Origin: Pseudomonadota bacterium
Lineage (GTDB): Bacteria > Pseudomonadota > Gammaproteobacteria > Steroidobacterales > Steroidobacteraceae
Length of the DNA stretch: 64,000 nt
Direction: 5' to 3'
Assembly: GCA_021792755.1 (NCBI GenBank)
Contig: JAJYUA010000015.1
Location: 1 to 64,000 of the forward strand
The notes below the pieces were generated by a model. The model had not been told where the DNA came from. It was given only the letters and a program-made list of their open reading frames with translations, and made no database searches. The position numbers and the translations under genes were made by a program. The stretch's first letter is position 1, and every line of letters starts with the position of its first letter. Of the stretch, positions 9,110 through 60,471 are shown piece by piece.

Positions 9110-9967
9110 CGTTGGGAGTGCGCCGGGAGACCGGCAAGGAGTAGGTGGTGCAAGTCCACTGCGATGAAGGATTAGCGATCCACATCGGCCCTGAGCCGTG
9201 CGCAGATTTCCGTGAGGAGGTCGGCGAAGCGTCGGTAAGGGAGCATGCAGGCCAGCCATTGAGCCGCGAAAGGTTTATTTCCGGGGTGCCAACGATGTTC
9301 TCAAGTCGGAAGGCTACATGGTCCAGCGCGTCAACGCGAGCACTGGATCGACCCCGCGTGGTCGAAGAACCTGGCATGCATGGACGCTCTTTGCACGGGA
9401 ACCGGGATATCTCCAGCTCGACCACCTGCAGCGAAAGCGGGGTGGTCCGCATTGGGAAGGCGAGGAGCCGTAGCCGATGACGTACGAGCCGGAGAAGTCA
9501 GATCCCTCCATATTAGCGAGGAAGCCGACGAACAAATCCGGACGATCGGAGGCGGAGTCGGTGGAGCGAAGGGAGGGGGCTGAGGGAAACACGGATGAGC
9601 GCCGCACGCGCCGGACACTGAGCCGGGAACGTGTGTCTTCGGGGCTCGACCGTGTACGGGAGCGAGCAAGGCAAGAGAAGAAGGAGCGGTTCACGGCTCT
9701 ACTTCACCATGTGACCGCCGATCAACTTCGCGCCGCATTTTCCTGGCTCAAGCGGGATGCGGCACCCGGGGTGGATGGCATCACGTGGCAGGAGTACGGT
9801 CAGAACCTGGAAGTCAATCTTGCTGATCTACATGCGCGGCTCCATCGCGGTGCCTACCGGGCACAGCCCTCGCGGCGTAAGTTCATCCCGAAAGAGGATG
9901 GACGGCAGCGACCGTTGGGGATTGCTTCGCTGGAAGACAAAATCGTTCAGCGTGCGGTGGTGGAAGT

Positions 9968-14035: not shown

Positions 14036-14564
14036 GCTTCAGCGCCGAGAGCTGCAGAGCAGAATTCTGGTCAGCGCCCGAGAGCCCGCACGCAGCCCAT
14101 TTTCGTGACTATCGCCGGAATTCCCGTGCGCAGTGAAAACATGCGCTCTGCCAGTGGGGGATGGGTCCACCCGGCAACTGTCTCGCCAGCCGGTCGCAAT
14201 CGGAGCGGTCGTGGAGGTAACGAAGCGATCGAAGCCTTCGGTGCAGAGGGCCGCCTTGGGTGGCTTGGCGACTACGCGGGCTGCAACGAGCAGTGAACGT
14301 TGAGCAGACCCCCGAAAACAGTAATGCGAACGCCGACCCGGTCGGGGATCGTGGGGATGTGAACGGTGGCCAGAAACCGCCTGATTTTGGGGTGGGGCCG
14401 CGGTCTTGAGATGACCGCGCGAGTCTCGGGGCGCTCCGGTCCGCCTCCTTCGTCTTGTTCCGATTTCCCCTTGCTATGTATTTCTTGTCTGCGCCGCCGC
14501 AACGCGCAGTCTGACCGGAAGTCGGAAAGGGCATCCGCTCCCTTCTACCTGTTGGCAATGCGGC
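14036..14564. other. intergenic, right edge of the accessory island
   Basis: About 530 bp with no supported gene. Open frames on the minus strand look like shadow or IS-tail sequence. The chromosomal arabinose cluster starts at 14,565, so the island boundary is probably in here, but no second att copy is visible in the window. Confidence 0.3.
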
Positions 14565-37008: not shown

Positions 37009-37121
37009 GGTGGCCCGCATCGGCTACTCCGCGACGACCAGTCGTGAACCCCGTCAGGGCCGGAAGGCAGCAGCGGCAGCGGCGATGTCGGGTGCCGGAG
37101 CATCCGCTGGTGCGGGCCGCC
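37009..37121 (+). ncRNA. ffs: 4.5S RNA of the signal recognition particle
   Basis: A 113-nt hairpin RNA that binds Ffh and targets membrane proteins. The apical domain carries the invariant loop sequence GTCAGGGCCGGAAGGCAGCAG (37,052-37,072). The 5' end GGTGGCCCGCA (37,009-37,019) pairs with the 3' end TGCGGGCCGCC (37,111-37,121). Placement immediately before dnaX is common in gammaproteobacteria. Ends are taken from the terminal helix, so they may be off by a few bases. Confidence 0.93.
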
Positions 37122-57450: not shown

Positions 57451-58018
57451 CAATTTTCCTAGCTTCTAGCATCGGTGCCGTCGGACTTGCATGCATTATT
57501 CGTTGCAAGATGGCGCTGAAATGTCACCGCACAGAGACAGCCGATGCTCTCGAGCTGACTGTCGCTGTCCGGAGACAGGCTGGTCTCGCGGCACGAGATA
57601 CCCATTGGGTAGCGGCAGACTAACCCATTTGGCATTTGGTGTGCCAGAAAAAGTCCGCGTTGCCGGCCGAGAGTGGGATCGCCGTCAAATGATGGCGTCG
57701 AGAGTCAACTTCGCTCCTGCGGCGCTGTGGCGCGATGCCGTTCAGGACGCCGATGCGACTGCCTGCTGCAGATTACTTGGGTATGGTTCGGCGAACGGTC
57801 GTTCTGGGCTGTCACCTTGCCGGTACTTCTGTCGGCGCGATGGCCGAAAGGGTGTATCGCAAGAGCGCCAGCTCGGCAGTGACACTGACCACCGCCCGGC
57901 GGTGCCCGCTCCTGTGCGGGTGCGTGAGAGTGCCCTTTGCTTCGCGGGCGATGATGCCGGCGACGCGGTCGGCTTCGGGATCCGACAGGTGTCTGACGTT
58001 CGGCATCCGCGCCATCCG
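57451..58018. other. intergenic, no gene recognised
   Basis: About 570 bp between opgG and the end of ssrA. The opgG promoter should be close to 57,460-57,560. A 64-codon minus-strand frame from ATG at 58,006 has no family match or good ribosome site. Nothing else is supported. Confidence 0.3.
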
Positions 58019-58052
58019 CCCGTGTTCCCGGCCGGATGGCCGGGAACACGGG
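58019..58052 (-). terminator. strong hairpin after ssrA, possible terminator
   Basis: A perfect 15-bp stem CCCGTGTTCCCGGCC/GGCCGGGAACACGGG with a 4-base loop, starting 7 bp beyond the CCA end of tmRNA. Position and strength fit transcript ending or 3' processing of ssrA. There is no T-run after it on either strand, so it is not a textbook intrinsic terminator. Confidence 0.5.
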
Positions 58053-58058
58053 CACCGT

Positions 58059-58701
58059 TGGTGGAGGCGGGGGGACAGTGCCTCCGCCGCTTTCGCGGCG
58101 GCCTGGACTATGCCTTCATCCGCACCGTTGCCGGCGTGGATGCGGAGCGTATTATCCCGCCGCAATGCGGCGGAATCCTAGTGCCCTCCCAGGACCCTTC
58201 AGGCCCCCGGAAGGTCTATGAGTCTCTACAGGGCGGGCCTGAGGTTGGCCCTCTTCCCACCCCTCGGCGTTGCCATGGCACTCTGCCTTCCCGGAAAAGC
58301 GCCGGCAGGTTTCGCCGATGTGAGCTCCGTTTACAGCCGACCCTCACGGATCGGCGCGACCCTTGATCGAACCCCCGTCCGCAAGCCCTAGACTTCAGGC
58401 TCTACGTACGTAGCCCTCTCTTTGGTTCTCGCGCCGCGCTACCCGAGGGGCAGGGAAGACGAAGCGCCAGCGGACGGTGACTCTTAACGGTCCGGCCCGT
58501 CGCACGCCGGATCGCGAGCCTGTGAGCGCGTCCCCCGAGTCGACCGCACAGGCACGGACCGGTCGGAGGTCAGCCGCGATTAGGCGGCGAGAGCGAAGTT
58601 GTCGTCGTTGGCAACTATGGTTTTGCAGCGTGATTTACGAGGGCACTGCGCCTCGGTACGCCCCTGAAGGTTCGCAACCCGCGTCGAAACCGGTCGCCCC
58701 C
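58059..58701 (-). ncRNA. ssrA: tmRNA gene interrupted by a group I intron in the T-loop
   Basis: The RNA that rescues stalled ribosomes with SmpB. The 5' part starts GGGGGCGACCGGTTTCGACG (58,701 down). The resume codon and tag (58,612-58,580) read Ala-Asn-Asp-Asp-Asn-Phe-Ala-Leu-Ala-Ala-stop. The 3' tRNA-like part reads GCTTGCGGACGGGGGTTCGA (T-stem GGGGG and T-loop start) and then breaks off. The missing 17 nt, T-CCCCC-CGCCTCC-ACCA, are at 58,075-58,059. They pair with the T-stem and with the 5' acceptor strand GGGGGCG. Between them lies a 290-nt group I intron. Spliced length is 353 nt, normal for tmRNA. smpB is 1.2 kb away. Confidence 0.95.
58076..58365 (-). ncRNA. group I intron (IC3-like) in the tmRNA T-loop
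   Basis: A 290-nt self-splicing intron. The 5' exon ends in U (…TTCGAT at 58,366) and the intron ends in G (58,076), as required. P1 forms between exon CGAU and intron GUCG with a U·G pair at the splice site. Core elements closely match the Azoarcus tRNA-Ile intron: ATCGGCGAAACCTG (58,319-58,306), ATGGCAACGCCGAG (58,276-58,263), TGTAGAGACTC (P7 5' side, 58,230-58,220), GAAGGCATAGTCC (P7 3' side, 58,117-58,105) and a P9 hairpin CCGCCGC-GAAA-GCGGCGG (58,101-58,084). The stretch between the two P7 strands is ~100 nt, longer than in Azoarcus. No homing endonuclease frame. Confidence 0.92.
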
Positions 58702-59886: not shown

Positions 59887-60360
59887 TCAAACCCCGCGTC
59901 TGAGCAGCCGCGCCTTGTCTCGCTGCCAGTCTCGCTCCTTCTCCACGGCACGCTTGTCGTGCTGTTTCTTGCCCTTGGCGAGACCGACGGAAAGTTTCGC
60001 CCGTCCGTTCTTCCAGTAAAGCTCCAGCGGCACCAGAGTATAGCCCTTGCGCTCGACGGCGCCGATCAGACCGTTGAGCTCGCTGTGGTGCAGCAGGAGC
60101 TTGCGCGTGCGCACGGGGTCGGCGAGCACGTGGCTTGAGGCGGCGGTCAGCGGCGAGATGTGCGCGCCGATGAGGAAGGCCTCGCCACCTCTTAGATAGA
60201 CGTACGCCTCCTTGAGCTGGGCGCGACCGGCACGCATGGCCTTGACCTCCCAGCCCTGCAGGGCGAGCCCCGCCTCGTAGCGCTCCTCGATGAAGTAATC
60301 GAAGCGTGCCTTGCGGTTCTCGGCGATCAGCCGGGAGGAGGGATCGGCCTTGGGGGGCAT
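59887..60360 (-). CDS. smpB: tmRNA-binding protein SmpB
   Basis: About 157 residues. An OB-fold protein that binds the tRNA-like part of tmRNA and carries it to stalled ribosomes. Conserved segments are [60 protein letters not shown] and the basic tail [20 protein letters not shown] that fills the mRNA channel. ATG at 60,360. It is divergent from ratA, as is usual, and close to the intron-containing ssrA gene. Confidence 0.95.
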
Positions 60361-60471
60361 GAGCGAGGATGGCAATTCGAGGGAGGTTGGCTATTGTAGC
60401 CTGAGCGGGCCCAGCGCAGGCGGGACGCTGGCCCTTGTGGCGGCGGGGCCGATCCTGGGACAATCCGGACC

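Follow-up and report, generated by a model that had tools for sequence, protein, structure and literature searches.

An earlier report on intron-form tmRNA is said to be that of Williams in 2002. A far larger collection is given by Nawrocki, Petrov and Williams (2025, PMC11915505), who count 883 unique intron-form tmRNAs in 21 phyla, with four intron sites in the T-loop of which position 7 is the main one, a homing endonuclease in 36 of the 883, and an average length of 293 bp for the founding tmRNA introns. The boundary rule stated in the same paper for group I introns is a U before the intron and a G as its last base, and a P7.1 region is mentioned there for tmRNA introns. In a clostridium, a group I intron of 287 nt in tmRNA is described as previously shown to self-splice, the construct having a 338-nt 5′ exon and a 24-nt 3′ exon (PMC2729099). 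Intron-form tmRNAs have therefore been reported already, as the first-pass annotation of the present DNA had stated for T-loop group I introns of other bacteria, and the existence of this gene form is not new. What is added here is one genus in which, among 58 genomes, 17 are intron-bearing and 30 intron-less, a host tree with at least nine changes of state, intron distances that, on the scale of the family, follow those of the host, and at least 13 other genomes out of 369 from the class with the same intron.

The window, that is, the whole stretch of 64,000 nt that was analysed, carries on its minus strand (58701-58059) a tmRNA gene (ssrA) in two exons, a 336-nt 5′ exon and a 17-nt 3′ exon, with a 290-nt intron between them (Table 1). 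The Rfam tmRNA model RF00023 matches 58694-58364 (minus strand, 151.7 bits, E 1e-59); its alignment stops at TTCGAT of the T-loop, and the 3′ half of the T-arm and the acceptor are outside the match. By eye, the acceptor GGGGGCG pairs with CGCCTCC with one G.U, and the T-stem GGGGG pairs with CCCCC. The tag frame translates to ANDDNFALAA*. When the exons are joined in the computer, ARAGORN calls a 353-nt tmRNA (336 + 17 nt) with the tag ANDDNFALAA, which is the product that had been predicted, and the genomic form is not recognised. A second intact ssrA was not found: in the assembly, which is 96% complete, no other tmRNA stands over the RF00023 cut-off, all of 12 weaker matches having at most 28.4 bits, and no intact T-arm/acceptor end was found in the genome within 2 mismatches. 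A permuted, two-piece tmRNA was also considered: its model RF04321 stayed below the cut-off (43.6 of 47 bits), and a permuted order of the gene halves is rejected because the standard model RF00023 matches in order. The hairpin directly 3′ of the gene is absent from the output of a terminator scan. Other RNA elements recognised by Rfam in the window, all on the plus strand, are a bacterial small SRP RNA (37018-37112, 64.5 bits), a group II intron piece (9151-9371, group-II-D1D4-6, 187.5 bits) and another, different one (14152-14291, group-II-D1D4-4, 84.5 bits).

Table 1. Features of the intron-form tmRNA gene and its surroundings, in window coordinates
Feature	Position	Strand	Evidence
smpB, protein partner of tmRNA, about 1.2 kb upstream of the tmRNA gene on the same strand	59887..60375	-	Pfam SmpB PF01668, E 9.8e-58
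tmRNA (ssrA) 5′ exon, 336 nt: acceptor 5′ strand, D-loop side, tag frame, pseudoknot region, 5′ T-arm half to UUCGAU	58366..58701	-	RF00023, 151.7 bits; lengths and ends
Tag reading frame ANDDNFALAA and stop	58580..58612	-	translation; same tag from ARAGORN on joined exons
Group I intron, 290 nt, first bases CAAGGG, last ACTG	58076..58365	-	exact empty sites in relatives; covariation in 22 introns; fold z -6.5
P1 3′ strand GUCG, partner exon CGAU 58369-58366, U.G at splice site	58357..58360	-	invariant, 22/22
P3 5′ strand CGGAGC, partner 58148-58143	58324..58329	-	two-sided change in 1/6 pairs, 5 invariant
P4-P5 domain	58264..58318	-	helix 4 100% paired, helix 5 79.0% paired
P6/P6a	58230..58263	-	helices 6 and 7, 100% paired
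P7 5′ strand GAGACU (guanosine-binding helix)	58221..58226	-	invariant, 22/22
P7.1 hairpin	58184..58214	-	helix 9: two-sided changes in 12/13 pairs, 81.1% of cells paired
P7.2 hairpin	58154..58176	-	helix 10: two-sided changes in 8/10 pairs, 85.8% of cells paired
P3 3′ strand GCUCCG	58143..58148	-	helix 3
P8 hairpin	58117..58142	-	helix 11, 80.7% of cells paired
P7 3′ strand AGUCC	58105..58109	-	helix 8, invariant
P9 hairpin, GAAA loop	58084..58101	-	helix 12: two-sided changes in 4/7 pairs; CGAAAG 22/22
tmRNA 3′ exon, 17 nt, UCCCCCCGCCUCCACCA: last T-loop base, T-stem and acceptor 3′ strands, encoded CCA	58059..58075	-	empty sites; exon lengths
Perfect 16-bp G+C-rich hairpin directly 3′ of the tmRNA gene, terminator-like, without U run	58018..58053	-	fold

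How does this locus compare with those described? As in the intron-form tmRNAs of PMC11915505, the T-loop is interrupted and the exons rebuild the T-arm and the acceptor; the likeness extends to the position in the loop, the U before and the G at the end, the length, and the absence of a homing endonuclease, as in most of its cases. The lineage differs, the relatives found here being titled Gammaproteobacteria or Steroidobacteraceae; the main text of that paper has none of the words 'Gammaproteobacteria', 'Pseudomonadota' and 'Proteobacteria', and the genus may already be in the database of that study. The clostridial intron shares the host gene and similar exon and intron lengths, and is from another phylum (PMC2729099). 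A search for literature on Steroidobacter together with group I introns, mainly in journals open without subscription, found none. Taken together, the evidence below makes it very probable that an endonuclease-free group I intron of 290 nt splits a tmRNA gene of the one-piece form at position 7 of the T-loop, that splicing would yield a 353-nt tmRNA, and that the intron, as it appears, is old, mostly inherited vertically, and often lost or exchanged.

Both splice sites could be fixed without any assumed intron rule, since relatives of the same genus show the empty site TTCGAT|TCCCCC. The insert of the window has C as its first base and G as its last, and the empty allele goes on with T; therefore only a single cut is possible, after a U and before a U, with G as the last intron base. 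The boundaries 58366|58075, which had been proposed from the letters alone, are thereby confirmed, and by the numbering of PMC11915505 the insertion lies at T-loop position 7 (UUCGAU|U). Among the 58 genomes of the genus that were searched, 48 gave a tmRNA match. An insert of 282-295 nt after TTCGAT is present, at the sequence level, in 17 of the 58, and 30 are intron-less: 29 of these read TTCGAT followed directly by T and the stem (28 unaltered, one with a changed stem base), and the thirtieth, G066, reads empty but is apparently split over two contig ends. The remaining 11 comprise ten genomes without a tmRNA match and one with a partial match at a contig end (G006). It is to be noted that the genomes are draft assemblies and that the named relatives are mostly metagenome bins. 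One intron-less tmRNA gene (L045, G032:C54) has, unlike its relatives, no encoded CCA end (CTCCATACC).

The Rfam group I model RF00028 does not list the window intron even at E <= 10, and a covariation test was built for this reason. At its own cut-off RF00028 also misses all of 19 related loci (6 + 13), so we regard its failure as a gap in what RF00028 can recognise rather than as the lack of a defining feature. Where the first-pass annotation had looked to covariance models for both parts of the gene, the tmRNA model did see its part and the group I model did not. In the test, 22 distinct introns were aligned and 95 pairs counted, P1 and the P7 pseudoknot included. Over these pairs 90.3% of the cells are paired, against 34.6-42.5% when the partners are slid, a comparison in which the nested helices, taken from the window's own fold, are favoured over the slid versions; independent of that favour are the changes on both sides, which are seen in 50 of the 95 pairs. 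None of five covariation measures was reached by shuffles (0/500). Folded by itself, the intron forms P2 to P6, P7.1, P7.2, P8 and P9 with -155.2 kcal/mol, and its shuffles give -122.9 kcal/mol (sd 5.0; z = -6.5; 0/200 as stable). P1 is a helix of 4 bp (CGAU/GUCG) with the U.G at the splice site, and both it and the two strands of P7 are identical in all the 22 introns; because of this invariance they are consistent with the fold but give no covariation signal. The terminal G and CGAAAG at P9 are also found in 22/22, and 93.5% of the cells of the P9 stem are paired. A point against is that, when the whole precursor is folded without constraints, the P1 pairs have a probability of only 0.025-0.043. 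Of the features of a group I intron, helices P3-P9 with the P3/P7 pseudoknot, the U.G in P1 and the terminal G are present, the last two in every intron. The elements that had been read from the window (the U before, the terminal G, the U·G of P1, the P7 strands and the GAAA hairpin of P9) recur in all the 22, and the proposal of a group I intron in the tmRNA T-loop is borne out by the stop of RF00023 at TTCGAT, by the empty sites and by the covariation. In sister lineages, six loci (L093, L099, L113, L164, L165 and L166) have about 15 extra nt at the start of the tmRNA intron, which could extend P1 into a hairpin.

To which subgroup does the intron belong? Azoarcus-type tRNA-Ile(CAU) introns are of group IC3, and the first-pass annotation had described the window intron as almost matching that of Azoarcus. 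For comparison we have L169, an intron of tRNA-Ile(CAU) in a different genus of the same family, which we take to be Azoarcus-like. The core likeness holds: GGCAACGCCGAG, TGTAGAGACT, GAAGGCATAGTCCAG and CGAAAG are common to both introns, and L169 is itself found by our core model R2 with about 35 bits. The subtype is not supported. Host gene and site are different, and the junction from P7 5′ to P3 3′, which is 4 nt by eye in L169, is 72 nt in the window intron and 65-80 nt in the 22 introns, with two covarying hairpins in the place of those 4 nt. A short P7-P3 junction without P7.1 and P7.2 is taken, after L169, as a mark of IC3, and the window intron does not show it. Hairpins P7.1 and P7.2 in domain 7 are features of group IA2 (PMC4227781), and helices 9 and 10 of our alignment correspond to them. 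Group IA2 also has an extended domain 9 (P9.0, P9.1, P9.2); no P9.1 or P9.2 is seen in the window intron, whose P9 is a single GAAA hairpin. Domain 9 has one clear hairpin, with a short outer pairing predicted around it. Because P7.1 and P7.2 are present and domain 9 is a single hairpin, we call the intron IA-like and give it no formal subgroup.

As had been foreseen, a standard tmRNA search misses the gene. Of 43 loci with the intron ARAGORN recognised a tmRNA in none, whereas of 64 loci without it only L140, which is half a gene, was missed (63 of 64 found); these counts are not independent, because several loci are copies of one gene from two collections, and the 43 intron-bearing loci hold 22 distinct introns. 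Since both ARAGORN and RF00028 miss the intron form, surveys that count tmRNA genes in this lineage by means of the two will come out too low.

How far does the intron spread? The structure of a first core model, R1, was derived automatically and contained an outer helix judged to be false; in the rebuilt model, R2, the P4-P6 structure was set by hand. In the multi-genome surveys the best 9-12 candidates per genome were scored by R2 under strict filters, so that all counts are lower bounds. In the order, at least 20 of 296 genomes match, at least 15 of them (own genome included) at the tmRNA T-loop, and these 15 introns belong to 7 genera in 3 families; the contig of one, L159, stops short of the 3′ exon. 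Scores are 80-137 bits for 14 of the 15 and 41.7 bits for L167. Five further matches in the order (L168-L172, 30-37 bits) lie outside the tmRNA T-loop; L169 and L171 are by eye in tRNA-Ile genes, and L168, L170 and L172 are other matches outside the T-loop set. L168 (G140) holds two matches in one locus, 1501-1606 and 2413-2516, with 37.1 and 20.8 bits, and possibly represents several group I introns in one gene. In a draw from the class, at least 13 of 369 genomes besides our own match, in 11 families. All the 13 show the T-loop junction (10 by pattern, 3 by eye) and in 12 of these loci Rfam also recognises a tmRNA; the remaining locus, L183, begins within the gene. In a draw from the phylum, only our own genome matched among 398, the best candidates per genome being scored. 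A second intron form, with a different P4-P6 (GCCAACGCCGTCCGGTGAAYGGGAAACC) and R2 scores of only 42-45 bits, occupies the same T-loop site in L167, L182, L183 and L184. Among mobile elements, 50,697 phage and 72,556 plasmid records were searched and, at the sensitivity used, gave no similar DNA. In viral contigs a 17-base P7 pattern occurs in 3 stretches, partly read by eye; none looks intron- or tmRNA-like, Rfam gives nothing there at its cut-offs, and they are taken as chance.

The same genome has another group I intron (L009, G000:C50:90807-91091, plus strand), found by RF00028 with 58.2 bits, which by eye interrupts a tRNA-Ile(CAU) gene after the anticodon; ARAGORN with introns allowed names it tRNA-Gln. 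When an intact copy of the interrupted tRNA was sought within 3 mismatches, only a site with a CTT anticodon was found. On the whole genome R2 listed only the tmRNA intron, 150 of 3482 candidates being scored. When L009 was scored directly, R2 gave 12.3 bits (E 0.02) against 126.5 for the tmRNA intron; the two are therefore at most remotely related, and an origin of the tmRNA intron by a recent move from L009 is unsupported.

Did the intron come recently to each species, or has it long resided in these genes? For the host tree, 50 of 80 loci and the window were taken, 30 having been dropped as their tmRNA state was unreadable by pattern inside the locus; with 6 further outlying intron-less rows left out, a careful tree of 45 loci was made from smpB and four neighbouring genes. 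On this tree the intron state must change 10 times, with no fewer than 9 of the changes on branches that are well supported, and a single intron clade, a group defined by trait and not by tree, is rejected (AU p 1.2e-42). The sister of the window, 92% identical in the proteins of the smpB neighbourhood, is without the intron. One may suppose that each intron-bearing species gained its intron recently by horizontal transfer. The changes of state speak for such gains, as does the weak agreement (0.33, a value reached by 299 of 5000 permutations) of intron and host distances among the 11 close rows, so that local exchange may have taken place. Over 16 rows, however, intron distances do follow those of the host (Spearman 0.86; 0/5000 permutations as high), and the 6 of 120 pairs with an intron distance < 0.35 all have a host distance of at most 0.21. 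No reading frame of at least 90 aa lies wholly inside the intron, which leaves no room for a homing endonuclease, and the phage and plasmid records above gave no similar DNA at the sensitivity used. Recent horizontal gain is rather unlikely. The host tree itself does not tell gain from loss. To all appearance the intron has long resided in tmRNA genes of the class, passing mostly by vertical descent, and was often precisely lost, or exchanged between close relatives; its history is read most simply as long residence with numerous precise losses and, perhaps, some local exchange. More tentatively, a very old intron of these tmRNA genes might leave and re-enter one and the same base among close relatives, each time precisely and with no homing endonuclease, via recombination with spliced copies or via reverse splicing; we regard this as a possibility somewhat doubtful at present.

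If the gene works as its sequence suggests, the precursor transcript would fold so that the intron core P3-P9 forms and CGAU at the exon end pairs with GUCG in P1. A P7-bound guanosine would attack after the U, and the freed exon end would then attack after the terminal G, by which the halves of the T-arm would be joined into the 353-nt tmRNA. We infer that splicing would proceed unaided in the cell. Ribosome rescue in this organism may then depend on it, as the first-pass annotation proposed. Would the intron instead be dead, or the whole a tmRNA pseudogene, with ribosomes rescued by other means? P1 and P7 are without the variation that could show selection on pairing, as such a reading would allow. 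Against it, the nearest intron-bearing relative shares 99.2% of the 353 exon positions with the window, and the nearest intron-less relatives share 98.6%, while the introns of the window and that intron-bearing relative are 93.1% identical over 290 positions (about 7% differ); moreover, all 22 introns have the same bases at the splice sites and in the two strands of P7. That the tmRNA stays intact while the intron within it changes faster is what one expects of a gene that works and is spliced; exons and intron both look selected, as judged from these comparisons, and a dead intron or pseudogene is very improbable. That an assembly artefact or an unrelated insertion put a tRNA-type intron into the gene is hardly credible, even with draft assemblies and metagenome bins, since 17 genomes of the genus carry the intron at the same base with diverged sequences, and these independent occurrences refute it.

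What would such an intron mean for its hosts? As the sole tRNA-Ile(CAU) gene found in the genome is also intron-bearing, two key translation RNAs of this organism may need splicing. If the switching in and out of the same base is true, the genus offers natural sets of near-identical tmRNA genes with and without the intron. By comparing close relatives that differ in its presence, one can test what a tmRNA intron costs, by which route it is lost and what benefit it may bring.
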